Assembly: GCA_012517385.1 (NCBI GenBank)
Contig: JAAYUZ010000051.1
Span: 1-45,314 of the forward strand
Direction: 5' to 3'
From: Treponema sp.
GTDB lineage: Bacteria; Spirochaetota; Spirochaetia; Treponematales; Breznakiellaceae
Length of the DNA: 45,314 bases
The first letter of the stretch is position 1; each line of letters begins with the position of its first letter. A model generated the notes under the pieces. That model saw only the letters and a program-made list of their open reading frames with translations. It searched no databases and was not told the DNA's origin. Below, piece after piece: positions 1,858-44,902 of this stretch. The position numbers and the translations under genes were made by a program.

Positions 1858-1937
1858 TTCATTGAATTTACTATCTCCATTTTATCTATATTCGTATTAA
1901 AATCATCCAGCCAAGATGAAAAGAACAGGAGGAAGTG

Positions 1938-3413
1938 ATGAAAAGGAGCGTAAAAAAACTCGGAATACTTGCTGTTGCAGCGAGTATTTCACTATTCTTC
2001 CTGGGTTGCAATACCCAAATTTTAAATCCCAGCGATACAACTGCTGAAGGAACAGCCCGTTCAATAACAGGAAAATCCGGGGTTATGATGCAGGGTTTCT
2101 ACTGGGATGTCCCCGCAGGAGGGACCTGGTATAATACTATGAAGAGTAAGGCCGCAGAGTTGGCTAATATGGCGGGCGGTTATGGAATAGATGCAATCTG
2201 GTTTCCGCCACCTTCCAAAGCCGACAATGGGGCTTACTCTATGGGTTATGATCCCTTCGATTACTATGATCTTGGCCAGTATAATCAGAAAGGATCTACA
2301 GAAACCCGTTTTGGATCCCAGGCTGAGTTAAAAAGTGCCATAGCGACCTTTAAGAGCTATGGAATTGCCAGCATGGCAGACATCGTATTGAATCACCGCT
2401 CCGGCGGAAACAGCGAATACAACCCTAAAACTGGTACAAATACCTGGACTGATTTTTCCGCCGTAGCTTCTGGCAAGAATAAATGGCACTGGGATTCATT
2501 CCATCCAAACAACTATTGTTCCAGCGATCCCGGCGCATTTGCCGGTTTCCCCGATGTCTGTTTTGCCTCCGGTTCTGCATATAACGATCAGAAAACCTGG
2601 ATGAACTGGCTGATGAGTACCACCAATGCGGGCTTCTCCCAGTGGCGTTTTGATTATGTAAAGGGACTTGAACCCTGGGTTATCAAGGATATGAAGGCTG
2701 CTACCGGAGGAGCCTTCTCGGTCGGTGAATACTGGGATGCAAACACTTCCACCCTGGACTGGTGGACCAATGCTGCAAATGCCTCTGCCTTTGACTTTGC
2801 CCTGTATTACACCCTTAAGGATATCTGTAATAATACCAGTGGCGGCGGCTATCTCCCCAACCTGGTAGATTACAGCAAATCCTTTGCTGCGAAAAATCCC
2901 CTGCGGGCAGTCACCTTTGTAGGTAACCATGATACGGATGAAATATACACCGATAAAATGATGGCCTATGCCTTTATCCTCACCTACCAGGGATACCCAA
3001 GTATCTGGTGGAAGGATTATTACAACTATGGGTTAAGCAACCTTGGCGGCCAATGGGGTAATGGTATTAAACAGCTGGTTTGGGTCCGGGGCAAACTGGC
3101 TGGCGGAGCACCCACAATTCAGAACCTAAAGACCAATGATGGAGATATGCTGATTTACGGAAGCTATGGGACCTCATCAAGCTCCCCGGGATACATTGTG
3201 ATCATTAACGACAATGCAACGAGCTGGAAAGGTTCCTGGGTACAAACCGGAAATGGCTACCTTAAGAATAAAAACCTTAAGGTGTATGCCTGGTATTCTC
3301 CAGTGAGCGGTCAGAATTATCAGCCCCAGACAAAATACTGTGACAGCAACGGCTGGGTAGAAGTATGGGCTCCACCACGGGGTTATGCGGTCTATTCTGT
3401 AGACGGTCTATAA
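1938..3413 (+). CDS. Alpha-amylase (GH13), probable lipoprotein
   Basis: A 491-residue glycoside hydrolase family 13 alpha-amylase that cuts internal alpha-1,4 bonds of starch-like glucans. The four conserved regions are present: DIVLNH (148-153), RFDYVKG with nucleophile D239, GEYWD with acid/base E264, and FVGNHDT with D332. The compact barrel and the GEYWD motif resemble the GH13_6/GH13_7 (plant/archaeal) type more than Bacillus enzymes. The N-terminus is a lipoprotein signal ending FLGC with Cys24, so it is probably anchored in a cell-envelope membrane. The ATG at 1938 is preferred over the GTG at 1935 because AGGAGG (1927-1932) is only 2 bases from the GTG but 5 from the ATG. It has its own terminator and probably forms a single-gene unit, divergent from the CBM21 gene. 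Confidence 0.93.
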   Translation: MKRSVKKLGILAVAASISLFFLGCNTQILNPSDTTAEGTARSITGKSGVMMQGFYWDVPAGGTWYNTMKSKAAELANMAGGYGIDAIWFPPPSKADNGAYSMGYDPFDYYDLGQYNQKGSTETRFGSQAELKSAIATFKSYGIASMADIVLNHRSGGNSEYNPKTGTNTWTDFSAVASGKNKWHWDSFHPNNYCSSDPGAFAGFPDVCFASGSAYNDQKTWMNWLMSTTNAGFSQWRFDYVKGLEPWVIKDMKAATGGAFSVGEYWDANTSTLDWWTNAANASAFDFALYYTLKDICNNTSGGGYLPNLVDYSKSFAAKNPLRAVTFVGNHDTDEIYTDKMMAYAFILTYQGYPSIWWKDYYNYGLSNLGGQWGNGIKQLVWVRGKLAGGAPTIQNLKTNDGDMLIYGSYGTSSSSPGYIVIINDNATSWKGSWVQTGNGYLKNKNLKVYAWYSPVSGQNYQPQTKYCDSNGWVEVWAPPRGYAVYSVDGL

Positions 3414-21488: not shown

Positions 21489-22406
21489 CTACAACTGAAA
21501 CCCAAGGCCTGTGGCTACTTTCCAGTCCGACACGCCAACAGAGCCGGAGTCATATCCAACTGAACCGGAAACAAAGAACCAATTCTGAAAGGAACCGGTA
21601 GAGATCAGGTTGATGCGCACCTCTCCGGCTGCGTCGCCTGTGTATTGCCAGTTACGCCACTGGGCTCCGTGGCTTAGACTGAAACCAAGCCGCGGCAGGG
21701 GCTGTAATACCAGTTCTGTGAGAAACTGCAGGGTTTTTACAGCGGTTTTCAGATCCTCCTGATAGATGAACGAAAGGTCCAGCGAGACAGGAAAGGCCGG
21801 ATACCAGGCGAGACCAAGCTCTGGACCGAAGGACCATGAAACAAGACTCTGCTCAAAGGTTGCCACCGATACCTGAACCAGGGGCTTAATCACCACTTCG
21901 CCCCATAAAAAGGAGGCTGAAAGTTCTGTGGAATAACCCATATCATAGGGTTCTCCGAAGGCTGCCAGAATATCAGCGGACAGCTGGAATGATATATTAG
22001 GATTATTGATGGTATCACTCAGTCTTAATCGAACATTCCCCGAAGGGTTTGCGCTAGACAGGCGGTCATCCGTAAAGGCTCCGTAAATTCCGGCCCGGTA
22101 AACGGCTGTGCCCTGGCCAAGGCTCAGCTCTGCGCTGCCCTGGCCTGAGGCGCTATAGGAGCCTGCAGAGCCCCACCAGAGGGCATTGAGGGAAGCCGCA
22201 AGGGAAAAAAGCCCATTCTGGCCCAATGGGCTGTCGGAAGAGCAGCCCGCCTGGCCCCCATAGTACCAGCCGGGGCTAAGGGTTTGCTGATCCGGTGTGC
22301 CATATCCGACAGATGGTTTTACTAGAAGCTCTGCATGCATTAATTCCGGAGCAATGCTCATCAATATAAAACAATACAAAAATGCAGCATGAAACACTTT
22401 TTTCAT
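21489..22406 (-). CDS. Unknown exported protein, probable outer-membrane barrel
   Basis: A 305-residue protein that I do not recognise by family. A signal peptide (about 1-25, likely cut after MHA) is followed by alternating polar/hydrophobic strands rich in Gly, Ser, Tyr and Trp with tight turns (for example GWYYGGQAG, AELSLGQGTAVYRAGIYGAF, ASFLWGEVVIKPLVQVSVA), ending in an aromatic-containing strand (VATGLGFQL). This is what an outer-membrane beta-barrel of about 14-16 strands would look like. It is the last gene of the ECF sigma operon, and its ATG overlaps the preceding stop by 4 bases. Confidence 0.75.
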   Translation of the reverse strand: MKKVFHAAFLYCFILMSIAPELMHAELLVKPSVGYGTPDQQTLSPGWYYGGQAGCSSDSPLGQNGLFSLAASLNALWWGSAGSYSASGQGSAELSLGQGTAVYRAGIYGAFTDDRLSSANPSGNVRLRLSDTINNPNISFQLSADILAAFGEPYDMGYSTELSASFLWGEVVIKPLVQVSVATFEQSLVSWSFGPELGLAWYPAFPVSLDLSFIYQEDLKTAVKTLQFLTELVLQPLPRLGFSLSHGAQWRNWQYTGDAAGEVRINLISTGSFQNWFFVSGSVGYDSGSVGVSDWKVATGLGFQL

Positions 22407-23095
22407 GGACGCTGACTCCTTGTTTGCAGTTCCCGGTCCAGGGCAGCAAGGCCGCTTCCGCTGTCCAGGCTGCCGATAATGAGCTTAACTAGCGGTTCTC
22501 CCATAATATTTCTGCCCTTTGCCCGTACCGCCAGAGACTGCAGCTGGGCGAACTGGGTTTCCTTAAGGCTGCTGCGGATAAGACATTCTGAGAGGGGCCG
22601 CAATAAATTTGCGGGGGCCTGGGCGATGGCGATGATTCTAAAGGAGGCCGAAAGGGCATCTACCGCCCGATTTGTTGGTTTTTGTACCAGGTTTGCATAC
22701 TCTAACACCGCATCGATAGTGTCCACGGAAACACCTCCTTGCAGAAGCAGTGAAAGGGCTTTGAGCAGCGATGCCCTGCTGGCTGAAGCAATCTTTTCCC
22801 TTTTTTCCAGCATTTGTATGGCCTGGGTAAGCCGTTCTACTTCTGCTCTGAGGGCCTGTACCAGCTGTGCACCGGTCACCCGCTTTGCAGCGCCCTCATT
22901 GAGTTTATCTACCAGTAAATCCCCCGGGATCTGCCGGCCCTCAGCCTGGTCGAAGATCCCTTGCAGTTCTGAGGCCACCTGCTCGTAGGCTGCACCGGCT
23001 TTACTGTTCAGCCAGAGCCGGGGTTCGTATTCAGCCCAGAGAGCAGTCGAAAGAACTAAAAATAACAGGCTGAAAAAAGAAATGCGGGCTTTCAT
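22403..23095 (-). CDS. Unknown exported helical protein
   Basis: A 230-residue protein with a signal peptide (about 1-21, cut after LWA). The rest is predicted mostly alpha-helical, with heptad-like stretches around VQALRAEVERLTQAIQMLEK and a leucine-rich region after it. No catalytic motif is visible and I cannot name the family. Start and stop both overlap neighbouring genes by 4 bases, so it is made together with the proteins at 21489-22406 and 23092-23520. Envelope location is inferred from the leader. Confidence 0.75.
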   Translation of the reverse strand: MKARISFFSLLFLVLSTALWAEYEPRLWLNSKAGAAYEQVASELQGIFDQAEGRQIPGDLLVDKLNEGAAKRVTGAQLVQALRAEVERLTQAIQMLEKREKIASASRASLLKALSLLLQGGVSVDTIDAVLEYANLVQKPTNRAVDALSASFRIIAIAQAPANLLRPLSECLIRSSLKETQFAQLQSLAVRAKGRNIMGEPLVKLIIGSLDSGSGLAALDRELQTRSQRP

Positions 23096-23520
23096 CGATG
23101 GGGTGATCCTGGTTTTTCTTGTGATGGAAAGGTAAAGGCATTCGAACCCGGACTTCCCTTACCGGGAGCGCCAGAGAAGATTGACTGCTCCCCCTTTACA
23201 GTCCTTAACATCCTCAGGCTTTGCAGCCTGCGCTGCTGTTCTGATTCATTCACATCAGATCCGCCAAACTTAAAGGCTAGTTCCTGCCTGAGCTGGGCCA
23301 GTGCTTCCTGGTAGGTAAACCCCTTTAAAAGCTGAAACCGGACCTGCTGTTCGTATTCCTTCTGCAGAGGTACATTATCGGTCAAGGACGGAAATTGCTG
23401 TTCCAGGGCTCGAATAATCCTATGGGCCTGGAACTGTAGAGGATCTGGCTCTCCTGCAGAAAGGATTCCGGTTATACATAGTGCAAGGACGGCACCAATA
23501 CTATACAGCCTATGTTTCAT
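23092..23520 (-). CDS. Small unknown exported protein
   Basis: A 142-residue protein with a signal peptide (about 1-22, LSA before GEPDP). The mature part has a charged helical region (PLQFQAHRIIRALEQQFPSL to LAQLRQELAFKFGG) and a flexible, Gly/Pro/Ser-rich tail. Family not recognised. AGGAGG stands 6 bases before its ATG, so translation restarts strongly here after the anti-sigma gene, 21 bases upstream. Confidence 0.7.
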   Translation of the reverse strand: MKHRLYSIGAVLALCITGILSAGEPDPLQFQAHRIIRALEQQFPSLTDNVPLQKEYEQQVRFQLLKGFTYQEALAQLRQELAFKFGGSDVNESEQQRRLQSLRMLRTVKGEQSIFSGAPGKGSPGSNAFTFPSQEKPGSPHR

Positions 23521-23541: not shown

Positions 23542-24186
23542 CTATAAATCCAGCAGTGAAACCTTGCCGCCAAAATCATCATCGATAGAAACCGCTGCAT
23601 GGGGATCTGCTATCCATATCTGGTTGTCGATGACGAAGTTATACCGGTATTCTCTGGACCGTTTCAGCCGTACCGTGGCAGACCAGGTTTTGCCATCCCC
23701 TTCTGGTTTCAGGGGGATATCCATGCTGGACCACTGGTTAAAGTTACCCGATACCATGACCGTCGTTGCCCCGGGGGCTTCCAGGAAAAAACGGACGGTT
23801 ACCACATCGGAATTCCTGTTCGCATATAATAAGTAGCCCAGGGGAAGAAGCACCAGCAAGGCCGCCACAGCCGCCCAGGGAATAAAACGTTTGAACCTTC
23901 GCGACTGGATTTGGGAATGGAAACCTTGTTCGTCAGGTGCGATAGCCCGCTCAAGACCTGCCATGAGCCGCTCCGTATCGGGGACCTTTGTGCTTTCCAG
24001 CGGAATCTTCACCTGCGTACTAAGGCCCCCATCCCGGTCCAGCAGAGGAATAAGGGCCCCATACTGGCGCGAACAGGAACTGCATTCAGCTAAATGGGCC
24101 TTTAGGGCTTCCAGCTCAGCGGTAGTGATTGATTCCTTCTGTTCCCAGCTATTAAGCAGGGTGGCAACCTGTACACAATCCATCAT
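23542..24186 (-). CDS. Membrane anti-sigma factor with extracytoplasmic glycogen-binding domain
   Basis: A 214-residue single-pass protein. The N-terminal zinc-finger anti-sigma (ZAS) region has C4 and the HxxxCxxC motif H31/C35/C38. A transmembrane helix spans about 101-121. The C-terminal 85 residues read as an AMPK-type glycogen-binding/CBM48 domain: VTVRFFLEAPGATTVMVSGNFNQW, DGKTWSATVRLKRSREYRYNFVIDN and WIADP. Such domains bind alpha-glucans or have become protein-interaction modules. The design suggests that a glucan-like or envelope ligand outside the membrane controls release of the sigma factor at 24183. The genes overlap by 4 bases, as expected for a sigma/anti-sigma pair. Ligand binding is inference. 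Confidence 0.85.
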   Translation of the reverse strand: MMDCVQVATLLNSWEQKESITTAELEALKAHLAECSSCSRQYGALIPLLDRDGGLSTQVKIPLESTKVPDTERLMAGLERAIAPDEQGFHSQIQSRRFKRFIPWAAVAALLVLLPLGYLLYANRNSDVVTVRFFLEAPGATTVMVSGNFNQWSSMDIPLKPEGDGKTWSATVRLKRSREYRYNFVIDNQIWIADPHAAVSIDDDFGGKVSLLDL

Positions 24187-24767
24187 TCTATTATACCCTT
24201 CTTAAAGCCCTTTGGTTGTAAAAGTTCCTTCACTTTTTTTCTTCCCCGGAAAAGACGGGACTTTACATTTTCTTCACCTATAGAGAGGGTTTCTGCAATA
24301 TCACTGACAGGAAGGCCTTCAAAATAATAGAGAAAGAGTACCTCATAAAGATCATGGGGCAGCTTTCTGAGAACCCGGACCAATTCAGTCCTGGTTTCGG
24401 CCTGCATTGCATCATGTTCGGGGTTATTCTGATCCGGGTCTTCGGGATAAAAGATCTGGCTGGCTATATCCTGCTCTCTTTTTATACGGCCCCAGGAGGT
24501 TCTGAGCACATTGGAGGCAATCGCAAAAATCCAGGGTCCGAATTGTTTTCCCAACTTAAAGGTTGGCAGCGACCGGTATACTCTGATAAAGGTTTCCTGC
24601 ACCAGATCGTTTGCCCGATCCTCGTTTCCTGTCCTGGCAAGGCAGTATCGATAGAGGGAATCCTTATAGGTGTCTACAATAACACGGAAGGCATCATTGT
24701 CTCCCGCCAGCACATGCTGAATGGCAAGGAGGATTTTGTCTTCCCTGGTTCTATCTGTATAATTCAC
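24183..24767 (-). CDS. ECF-type RNA polymerase sigma factor
   Basis: A 194-residue sigma-70 family protein with only regions 2 and 4, the ECF layout. Region 2 (about 24-95) includes GDNDAFRVIVDTYKDSLYRYC and the core-binding DLVQETFIRVYRSLPTF. Region 4 (about 135-185) has LPHDLYEVLFLYYFEGLPVSDIAETLSI and the DNA-reading helix EENVKSRLFRGRKKV. It should be held by the anti-sigma factor encoded next and direct transcription of its own operon. The start is a GTG (24765-24767); the frame is closed by TAG just upstream and no Shine-Dalgarno is visible. A TATAGT (24776-24781) lies only 8 bases before the GTG, so the message could be leaderless. Confidence 0.92.
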   Translation of the reverse strand: MNYTDRTREDKILLAIQHVLAGDNDAFRVIVDTYKDSLYRYCLARTGNEDRANDLVQETFIRVYRSLPTFKLGKQFGPWIFAIASNVLRTSWGRIKREQDIASQIFYPEDPDQNNPEHDAMQAETRTELVRVLRKLPHDLYEVLFLYYFEGLPVSDIAETLSIGEENVKSRLFRGRKKVKELLQPKGFKKGIIE

Positions 24768-24911
24768 AGAATCATACTATATCATGGGGCTGCTTCTTTT
24801 TCAGAGGGCACTTTAATTTATAGAAAATAGAAGAATTTTTATAAACCTCGATCAAAAAAATGAAATTGAATGCAACCAACCTGGGGAGAGCTGAGTATTT
24901 AGGGGTAGAGT

Positions 24912-24964: not shown

Positions 24965-25465
24965 ATGAAACGGATTGCAATGACAGTATTGATGGTCGCC
25001 CTTGGCATTGGTGCCCTGTGGGCTAATGGAAATGCAGAAAAACTGAGTACTGTAGAAGGTACAGTTCTGCAGGTTACCCCCCTCCAGGCAGAAGCCCGTG
25101 TAGCCCTACAGCTTGCCAGCGGCGAAACGGTAGAGGTGGTTCTGCCCGCGGAAGAACTTACCAGGCTGCAAATCAGGGAACAGGCTCATATTCGGTTCCA
25201 GGGAGTCCTGGTGCAGGGAGACACGACAGCACAGATTCAGACCAGGCTTTATGCACGGACCTGTGAGGTAAACGGGAAACAGGAACAGGTGAAAAATGCG
25301 GTAAAGCTTAGTACCCAGGACCAGGAACGGCTTCGCCAGCAGCTCAAGGATGGAACGGGTGATATGACCCAGACTCAGACACAAACCAGAACTCAGACCC
25401 AGACCCAGACATCAACCACTTCGGAAACCGCGACTCAAAGCCAGAACGGCACAGGTAAGAAATAA
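24965..25465 (+). CDS. Small exported protein with Thr/Gln-repeat tail
   Basis: A 166-residue protein with a signal peptide (about 1-20, cut after LWA). The middle (about 25-105) looks like a small beta domain of OB or similar type: STVEGTVLQVTPLQAEARVALQL, VEVVLPAEELTRLQIREQAHIRFQGVLVQG. The C-terminal 35 residues are low-complexity Thr-Gln (TQTQTQTRTQTQTQT), encoded by a CAGACN-type hexamer repeat (25371-25411), probably extended and extracytoplasmic. The ATG at 24965 is chosen because GGAGG stands 5 bases before it; the longer reading frame from 24860 lacks a ribosome site and would bury the signal peptide. It is divergent from the ECF sigma operon and could be a target of it. Confidence 0.75.
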   Translation: MKRIAMTVLMVALGIGALWANGNAEKLSTVEGTVLQVTPLQAEARVALQLASGETVEVVLPAEELTRLQIREQAHIRFQGVLVQGDTTAQIQTRLYARTCEVNGKQEQVKNAVKLSTQDQERLRQQLKDGTGDMTQTQTQTRTQTQTQTSTTSETATQSQNGTGKK

Positions 25466-28824: not shown

Positions 28825-30409
<1,585 letters not shown>

Positions 30410-37519: not shown

Positions 37520-39064
37520 ATGCCCAAAACCAAAGAAAACAACAACATCGAACCCCTCGAAAAACAACTCTGGAAAGCCGCCGACAAGCTCCGCAAAAAT
37601 ATTGACGCCGCCGAATACAAGCATGTCGTGCTGGGCTTAATATTCCTGAAATACATCTCCGACGCTTTTGAGGAACTCCACGCGAAACTCAAAAGCGGCC
37701 AGGGCGAATATGCCGGCGCTGACCCGGAAGATAAGGACGAGTACAAAGCCGAAAATGTTTTTTTTGTCCCCGAAAAAGCCCGCTGGTCATACCTGCAGTC
37801 GAGGGCAAAACAGCCCACCATTGGCAAAGAAATAGACGAGGCGATGGACGCCATCGAAAAGGAAAACCCCTCCCTCAAAGATGTGCTGCCCAAAGTCTAT
37901 GCCCGCGGGAACCTGGACCCCACCAGCCTGGGGGGCCTCATTGACCTTATATCCAACATCGCCCTGGGCGAAGCCAAAGCCCGCAGCGCCGACATTTTAG
38001 GCCATGTGTTTGAGTACTTCCTCGGCGAGTTCGCCCTGGCGGAAGGCAAAAAAGGCGGACAATTCTATACCCCGCGCTGTGTGGTTGAGCTCCTCGTCGA
38101 AATGCTCGAACCTTATAAAGGCCGCGTCTTTGACCCTTGCTGTGGCTCGGGCGGTATGTTCGTGCAGTCCGAAAAATTTGTGCAAAGCCATCAGGGCAAA
38201 ATCAACGACATTTCCATTTACGGCCAGGAAAGCAACCAGACCACCTGGCGACTGTGCAAAATGAACCTGGCCATCCGCGGTATTGATAGCTCGCAGGTCA
38301 AGTGGAACAGCGAAGGCTCGTTCCTCAACGATGCCCACAAGGACCTGAAAGCCGATTTTGTCATTGCCAACCCGCCGTTTAACGACAGTGATTGGGGCGG
38401 TGACCTGCTCCGCACCGACGGCCGCTGGAAATACGGCGCCCCTCCCGCGGGCAACGCCAACTACGCCTGGATCCAGCACTTTATCTATCACTTAAGCCCC
38501 TCCGGTATCGCGGGCTTTGTGCTGGCCAAAGGCTCGCTTACCTCCAAAACATCCGGCGAAGGTGAAATCCGCAAAGCTCTTATCGAAGCGCGGCTTGTGG
38601 ATTGTATTGTGAACCTGCCCGCCAAACTCTTTTTGAACACCCAAATCCCCGCATGCCTCTGGTTTTTGTCCCGTAATAAGGCTAACGGCGGCTACCGCAA
38701 CCGCACCGATGAAATCCTTTTCATCGACGCCCGCAACATGGGCCAACTCATTAACCGCCGAACCCGCGTACTCACCACCGAGGATATCCAAAAAATCGCC
38801 CGCACCTATCACGAATGGCGAAACCCCAACGGAAAATACGAGGACATCAAAGGCTTTTGCAATTCCGCCTCCATTGAACGGGTGCGCGAACTCGACTATG
38901 TGCTCACTCCCGGCCGCTATGTGGGCCTGCCCGACGAAGAAGACGACTTCGACTTCAACGAGCGATTTACACAACTCAAAAAAGAGTTCGAGGCGCAACT
39001 GGAAGAAGAACAACGACTGAATCAGGCGATCATTGAAAATCTGAAAAGGCTGAAACTAGAATGA
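37520..39064 (+). CDS. hsdM: Type I restriction-modification DNA methyltransferase subunit HsdM
   Basis: A 514-residue N6-adenine methyltransferase. The HsdM N-terminal domain (about 10-150: [41 protein letters not shown]) is followed by the catalytic domain with [16 protein letters not shown], the SAM-binding motif [15 protein letters not shown] (D205) and motif IV ANPPFN (N284-F287). It methylates adenines in the site chosen by HsdS. It is the first gene of the block, with GGAGAA before the ATG. Its GC-rich, C-ending codons differ clearly from the AT-rich genes at the other end of the block, a sign of separate origin. The ORF6N gene overlaps its stop by 4 bases. Confidence 0.95.
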
Positions 39065-39948
39065 GCACCGACCTTGTTAAAATAGATGATATCCAAAAAC
39101 GGATTTATTCTATACGGAATGTTCAAGTGATGTTGGATGAGGATCTATCTGTTTTATATGGTGTGGAAACCAGGGTGCTGAATCAGGCTGTAAAAAGAAA
39201 CATCGAACGCTTTCCACCCGAATTTATGTTTCAACTGACCAAAGAGGATATGGAAAACTTGAGATCACAGTTTGTGACCTCAAGTTGGGGTGGAAGACGA
39301 TACCTTCCTTTTGCCTTTACAGAACAAGGTGTAGCTATGTTATCGGCTGTTTTAAGGAGTGAAACAGCCATTCAAGTTAGCATTCAAATTATGAATGCAT
39401 TTGTTGCTATGCGGCGTTTTCTGCAAACAAACGCACAAATATTTCAACGCCTCGACAGCCTGGAATTAAAGCAGATTGAAACAGACCAAAAGGTGGATAC
39501 CATTTTAAACGCTATTGAACAAAAAACAGTAATCCCCAAACAAGGTATTTTTTATGATGGACAGATTTTTGATGCATGGAATTTTATAAGCAATCTCATT
39601 AGATCTGCTAAAAAATCAATCATTTTGATCGATAATTATATCGATGATACGGTGCTCTCTCTTTTTGCCAAGCGAAGCAAAGGAGTTACGGTTACACTAT
39701 TGACCAAAAATCCAAGCCAGCAACTCAAAACAGATGTACAAAAATTCAACGCCCAATATGAACCCATTATACTCAAAGATTTTTCTGCGGCACATGATCG
39801 GTTTTTAATTATTGATGAAACCGATCTGTACCATATCGGCGCTTCGCTCAAAGACTTGGGGAAAAAATGGTTTGCCTTCTCGAAAATGGACATGCAGGTC
39901 GTGGCGATCCTGGAAAACCTCAACAAGGTAAAACTGGGAGATAGCTAA
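39061..39948 (+). CDS. ORF6N-domain protein with PLD-like C-terminal domain
   Basis: A 295-residue protein. The N-terminal ORF6N/KilA-type DNA-binding domain (about 5-100) is clear: [54 protein letters not shown] and [21 protein letters not shown] short coiled coil ([24 protein letters not shown]) links to a C-terminal domain of phospholipase D type, with a single [23 protein letters not shown] motif. Such proteins are often embedded in type I RM operons and phages; their job is unknown, possibly DNA binding or nuclease activity. The ATG overlaps the hsdM stop (ATGA). Composition is more AT-rich than hsdM. Confidence 0.85.
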
Positions 39949-39974
39949 TGAATCACGAACAACCCGCGCCGCCC

Positions 39975-40013
39975 CTTGTTGACATTGACAACAAGGTATT
40001 TACGAATTATATT
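39975..40013 (+). promoter_or_regulatory. Internal promoter with dyad before the Abi_2 gene
   Basis: TTGACA (39985-39990), 17-bp spacer, TATATT (40008-40013): a near-consensus promoter inside the hsd operon. An inverted repeat, CTTGTTG (39975-39981) and CAACAAG (39989-39995), overlaps the -35 box and could be an operator. It lies 85 bases before the ATG at 40098. Confidence 0.65.
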
Positions 40014-40097
40014 ATTCTTAATAAGACTCGCCACGGGATATCTTCGGATACCGCACCAGGGCGGGTTGTTTTTTATACCCTGGGCCATGGGGGCATC

Positions 40098-40976
40098 ATG
40101 GCTGAAAAAATCTCCTTTTCAAAGCCAAGCCGTTCACCACAGCAACAAGTGGCTCTCATAGAAAGCCGTGGTGTACAAGTCTATGATCGGGAAGAAGCCG
40201 AACATTTCCTGCGCTACCATAACTACTATCAAATCAGCGGTTATGTTTATTATTTCGAAGTAAAAGGCCCATCGAGAACCCATCGGTTAGCCCAGCCGAT
40301 TTCATTCAGCGATTTAATATCTCTTGTTTGCTTTGACCAGGAGCTTCGATTCATCTTTTTTAAGTTGACTACCGAAATAGAAATAGCCCTGCGCTGTTCT
40401 GTGGCTTATAGACTCTCCCAGGCCTATGGACCGTTTTGTTTTGAAAATCCAGACATTTTTCGTTATCCTGAACAAGCCCAACCATTCAAGGAAATACTTT
40501 TAAAAGCCCTCGCGGCTCATGACAAAGAACCCTTTGTTGCGCATTTTACCCGAACTTACCAGGAACCCATTCCCCCCGCCTGGGTTATGGTAGAACTGAT
40601 TACCCTAGGAAACATTTCCTGGCTTTATAGTCAACTGCGAACGGATCTTCAAAAAACCATTGCGAAAGACTTTTCGGTTGACCATATGATTCTCGTCTCC
40701 TGGCTCAAAGCCCTCACCGAATTACGGAACACCTGCGCCCATCACATGCGGCTCTGGAATAAAGTCTTTGTGAACTATCCGAAAATCCGTAAAGCAGACG
40801 AATCCTTCCCTATTATACCGGACCAGAAAAACCGCCTGGGAAGTTTCCTTCCCATGATATTTCACCTAATGCGTATTTTGCATAAAAACCAGGTCTGCCA
40901 AACGGACTTACTCCAATTTCTGCGTTCACAACCCTTAATAAAACCCAAAGATATGGGCCTCTCCAAATGGCCTTGA
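40098..40976 (+). CDS. Abi_2-family (AbiD/AbiF) abortive-infection protein, HEPN type
   Basis: A 292-residue Abi_2 protein. Family landmarks: KPSRSPQQQVALIESRGVQVYDREEAEHFLRYHNYYQISGYVYYF at the N-terminus, FSDLISLVCFDQELRFIFFKLTTEIEIALRCSVAYRLSQ, and near residue 210 the HEPN-type RNase motif RNTCAHHMRLWN (RNxxxH). Such proteins stop growth after phage entry, probably by cutting RNA. The ATG at 40098 is preferred over one at 39948 (touching the ORF6N stop) because the family sequence starts there and a good promoter lies between the two; the longer form would add 50 residues that do not look like the family. It has no partner toxin gene. Confidence 0.85.
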   Translation: MAEKISFSKPSRSPQQQVALIESRGVQVYDREEAEHFLRYHNYYQISGYVYYFEVKGPSRTHRLAQPISFSDLISLVCFDQELRFIFFKLTTEIEIALRCSVAYRLSQAYGPFCFENPDIFRYPEQAQPFKEILLKALAAHDKEPFVAHFTRTYQEPIPPAWVMVELITLGNISWLYSQLRTDLQKTIAKDFSVDHMILVSWLKALTELRNTCAHHMRLWNKVFVNYPKIRKADESFPIIPDQKNRLGSFLPMIFHLMRILHKNQVCQTDLLQFLRSQPLIKPKDMGLSKWP

Positions 40977-41025
40977 AAGAGGATCGACCATGAATGCTTA
41001 TGTAAAGTTATGGAAAAGTTTTAAA

Positions 41026-41114
41026 GGGGGAAGTCTCCCCCTCGCGCAAGCCTCCTCGGTCGCCAGGCTCCCTGCGGGGTCTTGCGCTACCCCCTCTGCG
41101 GGGGACACCCCCGC
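41026..41114 (+). other. Structured RNA-like leader between Abi_2 and hsdS genes
   Basis: Very GC-rich with nested inverted repeats: GGGGGA/TCCCCC (41026-41031 with 41036-41041), GCGCAAG/CTTGCGC (41044-41050 with 41081-41087) enclosing AGCCT/AGGCT (41049-41053 with 41065-41069), and GCGGGGG/CCCCCGC (41098-41104 with 41108-41114, loop ACA). It fills the 174-bp gap, and the hsdS ATG follows 36 bases later. A regulatory leader, a recombination site or a mobile-element remnant are all possible. Confidence 0.6.
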
Positions 41115-41150
41115 AACGCCCCCGTTCCGCTTATTTCTGGGGGTGCGGCC

Positions 41151-42332
41151 ATGAAGGGATGGAGGGAGTATAGGCTTGAGCAGTTTGCAATTTTGGTGAA
41201 AGATATCTACAAGCCAAACGGAAAAGACGAACAAAAATATATTGGACTAGAACATATTGAACAAGAAACATTACGTTTAAATTCAGTAGGGAATTCAACT
41301 GATGTCATTAGCAATAAATTTCTATTTCAAGCAAATGATATTCTGTTTGGAAAACTTCGTCCTTATTTTCGAAAGGTAATTAAACCTAAATTTTCAGGTA
41401 TTTGCTCAACAGACATATGGGTTTTTAGGGCTAAAGAAGGGTTTTCACAAGATTTCTTATTTTACTTCTTAGCGAACTGGGATTTTGTAAATACAGCAAG
41501 TAGTGGTGAAGGTGGTACAAGAATGCCTCGTGCTGATTGGAAGTTTCTTAGCAAAACCAAATGGTTACTCCCCCCACTCCCCGAACAAAAGGCCATCGCC
41601 GCCGTGCTCTCCAGCCTCGACGACAAAATAGACCTCTTGCACCGCCAAAACAAAACCCTCGAAGCCATGGCCGAGACGCTGTTTCGGCAGTGGTTCGTGG
41701 AACCCTGCAAAAACGGCTTGCCGGAGGGGTGGGAGGAGAAAAGCTTGGAAGAATGTGTAAACATAGGTATTGGGCGTACTCCTCCAAGGCAAGAATATCA
41801 ATGGTTTACTGAAGATCCCAAAGGTATTAAATGGATATCAATAAAAGATTTAGGCAATAATGGTGTTTATATATTTGATACAGATGAAAATTTAACACAT
41901 GAAGCAGTAGAAAAATTCAATATTCCTATCATACCCAAAGATACAGTTGTTCTCAGTTTCAAAATGACTATTGGACGAGTTGGAATAACAAGCGAAGACA
42001 TGGTTTCAAACGAAGCAATTGCGCATTTTAAATTTAATCAAAAAACACCTTTTTCATTAGAATATCTGTATTTATTCCTAAAGCTTTATCAATACGATAC
42101 ATTGGGAAGTACTTCATCAATAGTAACAGCAATTAATTCTAATATGATTAAACAAATCACAATACTGATACCAGAAAACACAATAATGGATCGCTTCAAT
42201 CATTTTGTAGCACCATTATTTAAAAAAATACGAGAAAATCAAATTCAAATCTACACCCTAGAAAAACTCCGCGACCTGTTGTTGCCCAAACTAATGAGCG
42301 GTGAGGTGAGAGTGGAATATAATGGAGATTAA
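41151..42332 (+). CDS. hsdS: Type I restriction-modification specificity subunit HsdS
   Basis: A 393-residue HsdS with two target-recognition domains and two conserved helices. TRD1 is about 1-140, the central conserved helix about 140-185 (PPLPEQKAIAAVLSSLDDKIDLLHRQNKTLEAM), TRD2 about 190-350, and the C-terminal conserved helix about 365-390 (YTLEKLRDLLLPKLMSGE). Each TRD reads half of a split target site. The TRDs are AT-rich while the central helix (41570-41710) is GC-rich with hsdM-like codons, the mosaic expected from TRD exchange. The ATG at 41151 is chosen since the upstream extension (to 41082) translates the hairpin-rich leader. It works with HsdM; no HsdR gene is inside the window. 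Confidence 0.93.
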   Translation: MKGWREYRLEQFAILVKDIYKPNGKDEQKYIGLEHIEQETLRLNSVGNSTDVISNKFLFQANDILFGKLRPYFRKVIKPKFSGICSTDIWVFRAKEGFSQDFLFYFLANWDFVNTASSGEGGTRMPRADWKFLSKTKWLLPPLPEQKAIAAVLSSLDDKIDLLHRQNKTLEAMAETLFRQWFVEPCKNGLPEGWEEKSLEECVNIGIGRTPPRQEYQWFTEDPKGIKWISIKDLGNNGVYIFDTDENLTHEAVEKFNIPIIPKDTVVLSFKMTIGRVGITSEDMVSNEAIAHFKFNQKTPFSLEYLYLFLKLYQYDTLGSTSSIVTAINSNMIKQITILIPENTIMDRFNHFVAPLFKKIRENQIQIYTLEKLRDLLLPKLMSGEVRVEYNGD

Positions 42333-42334
42333 AA

Positions 42335-44902
42335 ATGAGTAAAGAGCATCTTGGAAGCAAAAGAGATGTATTGGAATTCCTCTGGAAATGGGCAGAAGAA
42401 AAAGGAAATTGGGCAAAATTACTCCTTCACGAAGTATCACAAACCACAGAGCCGTTGCCTCTTGAGAAGCGAAATACAGTTTATCGACATTTTCGCAAAA
42501 GCATAGGTCTTCCTGATGAGGTTGAAGAGATAGAAATACCAAAACCTAATGTCGCATTTACAGGTAAATCAATCCAGCTTAAAAAACTTGGTAATATACA
42601 GGGTCTTAACCGGTTATCATCAAAATCTGTAATCGAATTCTCGCCTAACCTCACAGTGATATATGGTGAAAACGGAACCGGCAAATCAGGTTTTTGCAGA
42701 ATTCTGAAAGATATCGGTTATAGTTACGAATCGGAAACAAAAATTCTTCCCAATATTTATTCTAAAGAGAACCCTAAAATTTCCGCTGAAATAGAATACA
42801 CCTGTGATGGAACAACTCAATCATATTCTTGGGAACCCGGGAAGAAACAGGAGGACTTAAAAAATATTTCCGTGTATAACAGCTCTTGCGTGGCGATTTC
42901 GTTATCAGCAAACAGAAATCTTATTGTAACGCCTCTTGGTTTCTCACTTTTTGATCGTGTTTCTCGTGAACTGGATGCTCTGGCCAATTTATTAAGTAAA
43001 GAAAAAGAATCTTTAATAACTACCTACGAGTGGTTTGGCTTATTCCACGAGGGAACAGAATACTTTGATATAATTCAAAAATTCGAGAAATTATCAAACG
43101 AAGATATCGAAAAATTATCTGATTTTACTCTGGAAGATGAAACAAAACTCGCAGGACTTGAAAAAGCATATTCCAACACGAATAAAGAACTTATTAAAAA
43201 AGAAATCAACGATTTATATATCCAAAATCATGAACTTGAAGAAATAAAAGATTCTATAGAGAAAGCGAAAACAATTTTTGGTGTTGACCAATGGCGGGAA
43301 CTCGGGAAAATCGCCAATAAAATAAAAACTCTTGAAGAAAAAGGATATGGAAGTCTTGAGGAATTAGCCAAAGAAAAAGGGATCGAATTATATGGGAAAA
43401 CAGAATTCGAATCTTTTATAAGAGCAGCGGATAAATATATATCTACTCTCTCAGATCCTAATTATCCTGATTTAGAAAACGCAAAGTGTATTTATTGTAA
43501 TCAGCCTTTAAGTGATTATAGCAGCATTGAATTGATTCGAAGATATAAAGAGATTCTAAGAGACACAACCAGACAAGAACTTGAAACGCAAAAGCAATTA
43601 TTCGAAAATTTAAAAGGGGAATTTAATAAGATACCTCAAAACTTACAATTACACCACCCATCGTATGGAATGGATGATAATCAGCGCCCCATTCAGCCTG
43701 AATTTATTAAAACCTATAATGAAGTCCTTGTAAAATTGAATCGCGCTTCTGAAAAGAAAGACTTTGGCACTGTTGATTTTTCTGTTGATTACGAAACTAT
43801 AATCAATTCATTACAGCAAAAGTTAGAAGAAATAAACCAATTGATTGTTGCCAAGGAAAAACTTCTTGCAGACATCGATTCTGAAAGAGTTAGGCTTGCC
43901 AAAGAGATTAATACACTAAAAGACAAAAAATTATTTGCTCAAAACAAAAAGACTGTTTTACAAGTCATAAATAATTATTCATTGAAAAAGAAATTAACCC
44001 AAAATGAAGGGGCTTTTAATACAAAATCTATCAGCGACCTAACAACTAAAGCGAGAAAGGAACTGATCGAGAATTCTTTTTCACAAACTTTTAAGGAAGA
44101 GTTAAAGAATCTCAGAAAGGACCATATTCAGGTAGATATTGATTTTGGTACAAAAAAAGGAGCTAATAACATTCAGCAACGCTTGCAAGAGCGTTATGAA
44201 CTATCAGCCATACTAAGTGAAGGAGAACAAAAAGCAATCTCACTTGCTGAGTTTTTTACGGAATTAAGCATAGACGGTGGTAAATCTACCGTTGTATTTG
44301 ACGACCCTGTAAATAGTTTGGATCACCATATCATTGAGGAAACCGCTAAGAGACTGCTAACTCTATCAAAAGAACGCCAAACCGTCATATTTACGCATAG
44401 TATTCTTTTGTTTAACTCTTTATTAGCTCAGGTAAAATTGCCGTATAACAAAGATATTCAATCCAGGTTTTACCACACAAAAAATCAGTACGAATTATGT
44501 GGTGTTATTACTGACGCTGATGAAGAAATCAATAGCCCCAAATCATACATATCAAGACTAAATGAACTAATTAATAACTCTCCAAAAAATAGACCTGAAG
44601 AAGAAGTAGCCGCAGAGGGATACGGGTATTTGAGAAGCGCCATCGAGTTAACTGTTGAGCATGAAATATTTCAGGGTACAGTTAAGAGATATCAAAAAAA
44701 TATCGCTCTCACAAATTTGGCCAGGGTTTCCGGTGAAGCGATTGACAAATGCAAAACAACCCTCAACGATATCTTTGAAAAATGCTGTGGTTACATTAAC
44801 GCCCACAGTAATCCTACCGAAGTCGCAAGTACCCCTACTATGAAACAGCTTAGAACCGATTTTGAGACCTATCAAACTATAAGGAAGGATTTTATAAAAT
44901 GA
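42335..44902 (+). CDS. RloC/PrrC-like ABC-type ATPase with zinc hook
   Basis: An 855-residue SMC/Rad50-like ATPase of the AAA_13 group. Walker A is GENGTGKS (111-118), the ABC signature LSEGEQ (627-632), Walker B VVFDDP with the D-loop NSLD (653-663), and an H-loop THS (H688). Long coiled coils (about 255-380 and 400-600) surround a zinc hook CIYC (C385, C388), the mark of RloC-type proteins. The C-terminal part (about 760-850) is where RloC and PrrC carry a tRNA anticodon nuclease; it has R767 and E771 in RxxxE spacing and a possible H824. The first 60 residues are an extra domain. RloC genes are often linked to type I RM loci, as here. Strongly AT-rich. GGAGA lies before the ATG. Confidence 0.82.
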   Translation: MSKEHLGSKRDVLEFLWKWAEEKGNWAKLLLHEVSQTTEPLPLEKRNTVYRHFRKSIGLPDEVEEIEIPKPNVAFTGKSIQLKKLGNIQGLNRLSSKSVIEFSPNLTVIYGENGTGKSGFCRILKDIGYSYESETKILPNIYSKENPKISAEIEYTCDGTTQSYSWEPGKKQEDLKNISVYNSSCVAISLSANRNLIVTPLGFSLFDRVSRELDALANLLSKEKESLITTYEWFGLFHEGTEYFDIIQKFEKLSNEDIEKLSDFTLEDETKLAGLEKAYSNTNKELIKKEINDLYIQNHELEEIKDSIEKAKTIFGVDQWRELGKIANKIKTLEEKGYGSLEELAKEKGIELYGKTEFESFIRAADKYISTLSDPNYPDLENAKCIYCNQPLSDYSSIELIRRYKEILRDTTRQELETQKQLFENLKGEFNKIPQNLQLHHPSYGMDDNQRPIQPEFIKTYNEVLVKLNRASEKKDFGTVDFSVDYETIINSLQQKLEEINQLIVAKEKLLADIDSERVRLAKEINTLKDKKLFAQNKKTVLQVINNYSLKKKLTQNEGAFNTKSISDLTTKARKELIENSFSQTFKEELKNLRKDHIQVDIDFGTKKGANNIQQRLQERYELSAILSEGEQKAISLAEFFTELSIDGGKSTVVFDDPVNSLDHHIIEETAKRLLTLSKERQTVIFTHSILLFNSLLAQVKLPYNKDIQSRFYHTKNQYELCGVITDADEEINSPKSYISRLNELINNSPKNRPEEEVAAEGYGYLRSAIELTVEHEIFQGTVKRYQKNIALTNLARVSGEAIDKCKTTLNDIFEKCCGYINAHSNPTEVASTPTMKQLRTDFETYQTIRKDFIK

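Follow-up and report, generated by a model that had tools for sequence, protein, structure and literature searches.

A CBM48-bearing membrane anti-sigma factor paired with an ECF sigma factor in Treponema: a predicted envelope-sensing unit found in three phyla

Overview

The window, that is, the whole stretch of 45,314 nucleotides of a Treponema sp. contig that was analysed, encodes on sequence evidence an ECF sigma factor and transmembrane anti-sigma factor pair, and the anti-sigma factor carries a CBM48/AMPK-type domain on the periplasmic side (Table 1). The pair probably forms a switch in which the CBM48 domain and a co-encoded secreted protein, dn2, read an envelope signal, and the promoters that it uses would include its own. 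The unit of sigma factor, anti-sigma factor (TM–CBM48) and dn2 occurs in three phyla and appears to be undescribed; our literature search, outside which most subscription journals lie, found no anti-sigma factor with a CBM48 or AMPK1_CBM domain, and this is no proof of absence. The new element is the CBM48 sensor domain together with a constant partner that has no known family, placed on ECF/anti-sigma signalling of a known type. The carbohydrate-sensing anti-sigma factors known so far are mostly RsgI proteins of clostridia, and the CBM48 fold is best known from the glycogen sensor AMPK. If the reading is true, a second, unrelated design would mean that bacteria have used CBM folds more than once as transmembrane sensors. 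The unit offers a way into ECF signalling in spirochaetes and Nitrospirota, two groups in which the signal is known for few ECF systems, and its testable parts are a defined promoter motif, the partner protein dn2 and a single domain suited to ligand tests.

Table 1. Features of the sigma/anti-sigma locus (positions in the window)
Feature	Position	Strand	Description
ECF sigma factor	24183..24767	(-)	194 aa, GTG start; Sigma70_r2, r4_2 and sigma70-ECF models
Membrane anti-sigma factor	23542..24186	(-)	214 aa, ZAS–TM–CBM48
Cytoplasmic ZAS-type anti-sigma domain	24031..24186	(-)	Residues 1-52; C4, H31, C35, C38; RsiW profile match, helices in model
Transmembrane helix	23827..23883	(-)	Residues 102-120; hydropathy and flanking charges, model helix
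Periplasmic CBM48/AMPK-type domain	23545..23805	(-)	Residues 128-214; Pfam, Foldseek, structural alignment
dn1, small secreted protein	23092..23520	(-)	Without family (Pfam)
dn2, secreted all-alpha protein	22403..23095	(-)	Constant partner of the anti-sigma factor
dn3, secreted protein and probable outer-membrane barrel (inferred)	21489..22406	(-)	No Pfam match
Divergent secreted protein	24965..25465	(+)	166 aa; weak TOBE/OB-like match; predicted sigma target
Predicted sigma-dependent promoter	24192..24219	(-)	ACAACC-N17-GTATA; lies within the last part of the sigma gene and stops 5 nt short of the anti-sigma start
Predicted sigma-dependent divergent promoter	24871..24898	(+)	TGCAACC-N17-GTAT; 0.07 expected in the window

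The sigma factor and anti-sigma factor

The two open reading frames overlap by 4 nt. The upstream one matches Sigma70_r2 (1.1e-13), Sigma70_r4_2 (6.8e-13) and sigma70-ECF (2.4e-28), all above cut-off, and regions 2 and 4 lie within one short protein, as in ECF (group 4) sigma factors; the ECF sigma factor of the original prediction is thus confirmed in its place. The sister-species sigma factor shows 70-72% identity, with its position unchanged.

In the anti-sigma factor, the N-terminus matches zf-HC2 (Pfam) with a value of 0.0029, which is below the cut-off. However, the HxxxCxxC signature and the upstream cysteine that characterize class I (ZAS/ASDI) anti-sigma factors are both present, and all four ligands are kept in the homologues that retain this domain. 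The family profile also matches the structure of the anti-sigma-W factor RsiW (5wuq) with an E value of 2.3e-4 over residues 1-79, so the zinc finger claimed earlier holds despite its sub-threshold zf-HC2 score. The AlphaFold model, in which both end domains are confident and the linkers are of low confidence, places N-terminal helices at residues 4-17, 22-34 and 36-52 with a pLDDT of >90, in agreement with the helical fold of anti-sigma domains. The single transmembrane segment is preceded directly by QSRRFKRF, which puts the Arg and Lys residues on the inner side, and the helix in the model spans residues 102-127; the one membrane helix that had been noticed is therefore present, with its positive side inwards. 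Full ZAS–TM–CBM48 homologues are spread over the order of the host, and this rules out a chance origin of the domain layout.

The CBM48/AMPK-type domain

The C-terminal residues had been suggested to form a glycogen-binding-type domain outside the membrane, to be checked by a profile search. Pfam finds CBM_48 (1.1e-8, residues 129-197) and AMPK1_CBM (1.7e-8, residues 139-208) there, both above the curated cut-offs, and the domain reaches the C-terminus of the protein. With this domain as the query, the best Foldseek matches are the CBMs of AMPK beta (4yee, TMt 0.74) and SEX4. The superposition of the model with the glycogen-binding domain (GBD) of AMPK beta1 (1z0n_B) gives a Z score of 12.3 and an r.m.s.d. 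of 1.8 over 79 residues. Together with the charges that flank the membrane helix, these matches support the domain type and its location.

We compared the sugar-contact residues with those of AMPK, in which W100, K126, W133, L146 and T148 make direct contacts and their mutation markedly cut glycogen binding (PMC2642990). The equivalents of W100 and W133 are W152 and W191, and both are invariant in 25 Spirochaetales sequences; the position of L146 is hydrophobic in the window protein. The equivalents of K126 and T148 are N183 and G207. The position of K126 is occupied by Asn in 22 of the 25 Spirochaetales sequences and by Met, Leu, Ile or Ser in nearly all of the Nitrospirota copies, and that of T148 by Gly or other residues in the family. 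The expected glucan-contact residues are thus kept as far as the two tryptophans are concerned and replaced at K126 and T148. With N183 and G207 in these places, the window domain can be called a domain of CBM48 fold and at most a possible glycogen binder. In the alignment of 27 sequences, all 14 invariant columns lie within the CBM48 domain and include both tryptophans. W191 is lost in distant members of the family, including the copy in one genome (G061). A lysine at the position of K126 is often kept in secreted spirochaete CBM48 proteins outside the unit (partly read by eye), so its loss seems particular to the anti-sigma branch.

Distribution of the unit

The scan of 84,980 species genomes returned 27 loci with the order sigma factor, anti-sigma factor and dn2, which belong to spirochaetes or their relatives (24), Nitrospirota/Thermodesulfovibrionales (two) and a Kiritimatiellales MAG (one, in which the contig end cuts the sigma gene). 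We also surveyed 246 Nitrospirota genomes; matches at E 1e-20 or better were found in 54, and the best 30 loci were read. The sigma gene immediately precedes the anti-sigma gene in 27 of 27 and 30 of 30 loci, respectively (two genomes are in both sets), and dn2 is present in all 27 and in 29 of the 30, the remaining locus being cut at a contig end. The pairing of sigma factor and CBM48 anti-sigma factor, for which a survey had been proposed, therefore recurs in Spirochaetota, Nitrospirota and a Kiritimatiellales MAG and is not a one-off. Among 296 Spirochaetota genomes, CBM48-like matches occur in 240 and dn2 in only 18, and all 18 have a CBM48 match close by on the same contig (adjacency was read in detail for some of the loci). 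One genome of the same genus (G001) has no close match to the sigma factor, the anti-sigma factor or dn2, as would follow from the loss of the entire unit. A further family copy (L007, G025:C218:47-592) carries a TGA codon in frame, close to the end of the contig, and is possibly degraded or truncated.

The zinc finger is absent in family f5, in most of the distant classes of Spirochaetota and in Nitrospirota; in the last of these, the anti-sigma factor begins with an 'LLDGELSxEE'-type sequence instead. Loci in which it is lost or replaced and TM–CBM48 and dn2 are retained are L080-L088, L089-L091, L119-L136 and L197-L226. From these comparisons, the sensor half is better conserved than the half that would hold the sigma factor, and the family can do without the zinc finger; ASDIs that lack zinc are common (PMC7406223).

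In 27 of the 30 Nitrospirota loci, the unit is flanked by a second, small CBM48 gene, and the other three are cut on that side. Several of its products have a lipobox-like start, as read from the sequence. Examples are L089:4651-5028, L090:4876-5289 and L197-L226, and L130 and L131 have comparable additional CBM48 genes.

Some CBM48 proteins met in the searches were rejected as members. The small cytosolic 'isoamylase early set' proteins (plasmid matches, L017-L029) have the fold in common and are of a different kind; they were set aside because their neighbours on the Pseudoalteromonas plasmid are glycogen genes, with no sigma factor. The secreted CBM48 proteins of treponemes, of ~650-730 aa, are a separate family with no sigma factor in the flanks searched. 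They have an N-terminal CBM48 domain and are probable outer-membrane barrels (L021, L026, L028, L030, L063, L120, L128, L133 and L135), and one such gene is next to an amylase gene on plasmid pTS2 of T. saccharophilum.

Operon partners and the divergent gene

The AF2 model of dn2, which is predicted to be secreted, consists of about a dozen helices with a pLDDT of 92. No Pfam or NCBIfam family was found for it, no PDB structure matched at an E value as low as 0.001, and neither these family searches nor the all-alpha model relates it to the RseB family of third proteins. It could be mere cargo rather than a co-regulator. dn1 and dn3 are variable across the family, and dn3 is present in part of it. 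The divergent secreted gene is kept beside the sigma gene in the sister species, and several other spirochaetes have a lipoprotein with DUF4382-like sequence at the divergent position (L068, L069, L070, L072, L073, L075 and L084); the one copy run against Pfam, that of L070, matches DUF4382 at 1.5e-31.

Promoters and regulon

The motif TGCAACC-N17-GTAT is common to the upstream sequences and is ECF-like in shape. Of 28 loci, 18 have its relaxed form at the anti-sigma start (0.05 expected) and 12 have it in the divergent region (0.36 expected); the 28 loci are related and not independent, so these expected counts are no p-values, and the site at the anti-sigma start overlaps the sigma coding sequence. 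The -10 element at the anti-sigma start leaves almost no leader. Genome-wide, the counts of the strict and relaxed patterns are near those of the reversed-pattern control and similar in G001, which is without the sigma factor, and a large regulon was rejected on this comparison. In another genome (G020), the sole genome-wide match is the anti-sigma site. The conservation of the motif by position and the near-background genome counts make autoregulation likely, as judged from predicted promoters, and a larger regulon is not indicated. In Nitrospirota, a different ECF-type motif, GTAAC-N-CGTC, precedes the sigma gene; a strict pattern finds it in 12 of 27 loci, and it can be seen by eye in others.

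Comparison with known systems

The window pair resembles SigW/RsiW of Bacillus subtilis in its ECF sigma factor, the adjacent membrane anti-sigma factor with an N-terminal ZAS domain, and the AAC/GTA-type promoter motif. However, RsiW lacks CBM48, the zinc site is dispensable in the window family, which has dn2 and the second CBM48 protein in addition. In SigI/RsgI of Clostridium thermocellum (PMC12203970), too, a transmembrane anti-sigma factor ends in a carbohydrate-binding-type domain outside the membrane. The sigma type and the cytoplasmic domain differ, and RsgI proteins have CBM3, CBM42 or PA14 where the window family has CBM48. The Pfam and NCBIfam matches listed are of the zf-HC2/anti-sigma and ECF types, with no RsgI N-terminal domain and no sigma-I partner among them, and the periplasmic autocleavage domain of RsgI was not recognised in the window anti-sigma factor, whose host has a Gram-negative-type envelope. 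The original view that this design is distinct from RsgI is therefore well founded.

The AMPK beta GBD (1z0n, 4yee) shares the fold, both binding tryptophans and the hydrophobic L146 position with the window domain, but it is cytosolic and part of a kinase, whereas the window domain is periplasmic, part of an anti-sigma factor and altered at K126 and T148. RseA/RseB shows the same gene order of sigma factor, anti-sigma factor and secreted third protein; in contrast, the third protein here, dn2, is all-alpha without a recognised family, and the anti-sigma factor ends in CBM48.

Proposed mechanism and possible signals

The domains, topology signals, gene linkage and promoter-motif conservation described above are observed, and the switch outlined here borrows sequestration, proteolysis and ligand from RsiW, RseA and RsgI. 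The cytoplasmic ZAS domain, zinc-free in relatives, would sequester the sigma factor, as the homology to RsiW suggests. The periplasmic CBM48 domain and dn2 would read an envelope signal, which may be a glycan or may reflect the condition of dn2 and its partners. The sigma factor would be freed when the signal binds or is lost, with regulated intramembrane proteolysis as the probable route, and would then transcribe from promoters of the TGCAACC-N17-GTAT type. The promoter at the anti-sigma start would then drive the anti-sigma factor with dn1, dn2 and dn3, combining negative feedback with the supply of envelope proteins, and the second promoter would drive the divergent secreted protein.

The invariance of both tryptophans supports a carbohydrate ligand of some kind, which is a prediction to which we give slightly less than an even chance. 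Somewhat below this stands a protein-sensing envelope-stress switch, in which the CBM48 domain would dock dn2 or the second CBM48 protein in an RseA–RseB-like manner, with no sugar involved. The constancy of dn2 as a partner over three phyla, the second CBM48 gene that adjoins the unit in each of the 30 Nitrospirota loci not cut at that side, and the partial loss of the canonical glycan contacts all favour it. So does the presence, near two Nitrospirota loci, of a weak match to Metal_resist and of a gene that probably encodes a copper-ATPase-type protein. However, dn2 is all-helical with no RseB similarity found, and two exposed-type tryptophans conserved over such an evolutionary distance are more typical of a sugar platform. 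The two loci are L090:3913-4320 and L089:1-4000, where the match is Spy/CpxP-like and the copper ATPase was recognised by eye, a hint of envelope or metal stress.

More tentatively, the CBM48 anti-sigma factor, often with a secreted CBM48 twin, and dn2 may sense polysaccharide of their own envelope or of the surroundings through a re-tuned site in which K126 is replaced; they would then represent an undescribed signalling class in Spirochaetota, Nitrospirota and Kiritimatiellota.

A specific alpha-glucan signal, the ligand first proposed, is unlikely. In this case glycogen, starch or maltodextrin, in the periplasm or outside the cell, would bind to the CBM48 domain, and alpha-glucan use would be switched on by the sigma factor. 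The nearest solved folds are indeed glycogen- or starch-binding CBM48s, the two tryptophans are invariant in Spirochaetales, and the host has 13 GH13 and three phosphorylase-family matches. However, K126 and T148, positions where the AMPK mutations markedly lowered glycogen binding (PMC2642990), are replaced, and no glucan gene was recognised in the examined operons or under the promoter motif. CBM48-type domains also occur on feruloyl esterases solved with xylobiose, which are among the Foldseek matches, so the fold does not imply alpha-glucan. In the G061 genome, which is a single contig and about 90% complete, the unit is present, but neither GH13 nor glycogen phosphorylase could be detected; since the G061 copy has lost W191, this genome informs only on the family as a whole. 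No phosphorylase match was found in G095. The neighbouring genes put forward in favour of this signal did not hold up either: the amylase at 1935-3413, the closest GH13 gene in the window, lies ~20 kb away and outside the operon, so linkage to it was rejected, and no CBM21 match was found among the nine window ORFs scanned.

The periplasmic domains of known anti-sigma factors vary widely, and in RseA-type systems protease access outweighs ligand binding by the anti-sigma domain itself. Although the position of CBM48 at the very C-terminus would suit a role in protease control as a folded plug or a handle for degradation, with no specific ligand, this is improbable, since the confinement of all invariant columns, both tryptophans included, to a fold kept across phyla is difficult to account for unless there is a specific contact, even if many of these positions may be structural.

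Other features of the window

Two adjacent ORFs at 28856-29482 and 29510-30409 appear by eye to be one arabinofuranosidase split in two, possibly by a frameshift or an assembly error. The region 37520-44902 holds type I restriction-modification genes (HsdM and HsdS), followed by a gene for an 855-aa AAA_13 protein.
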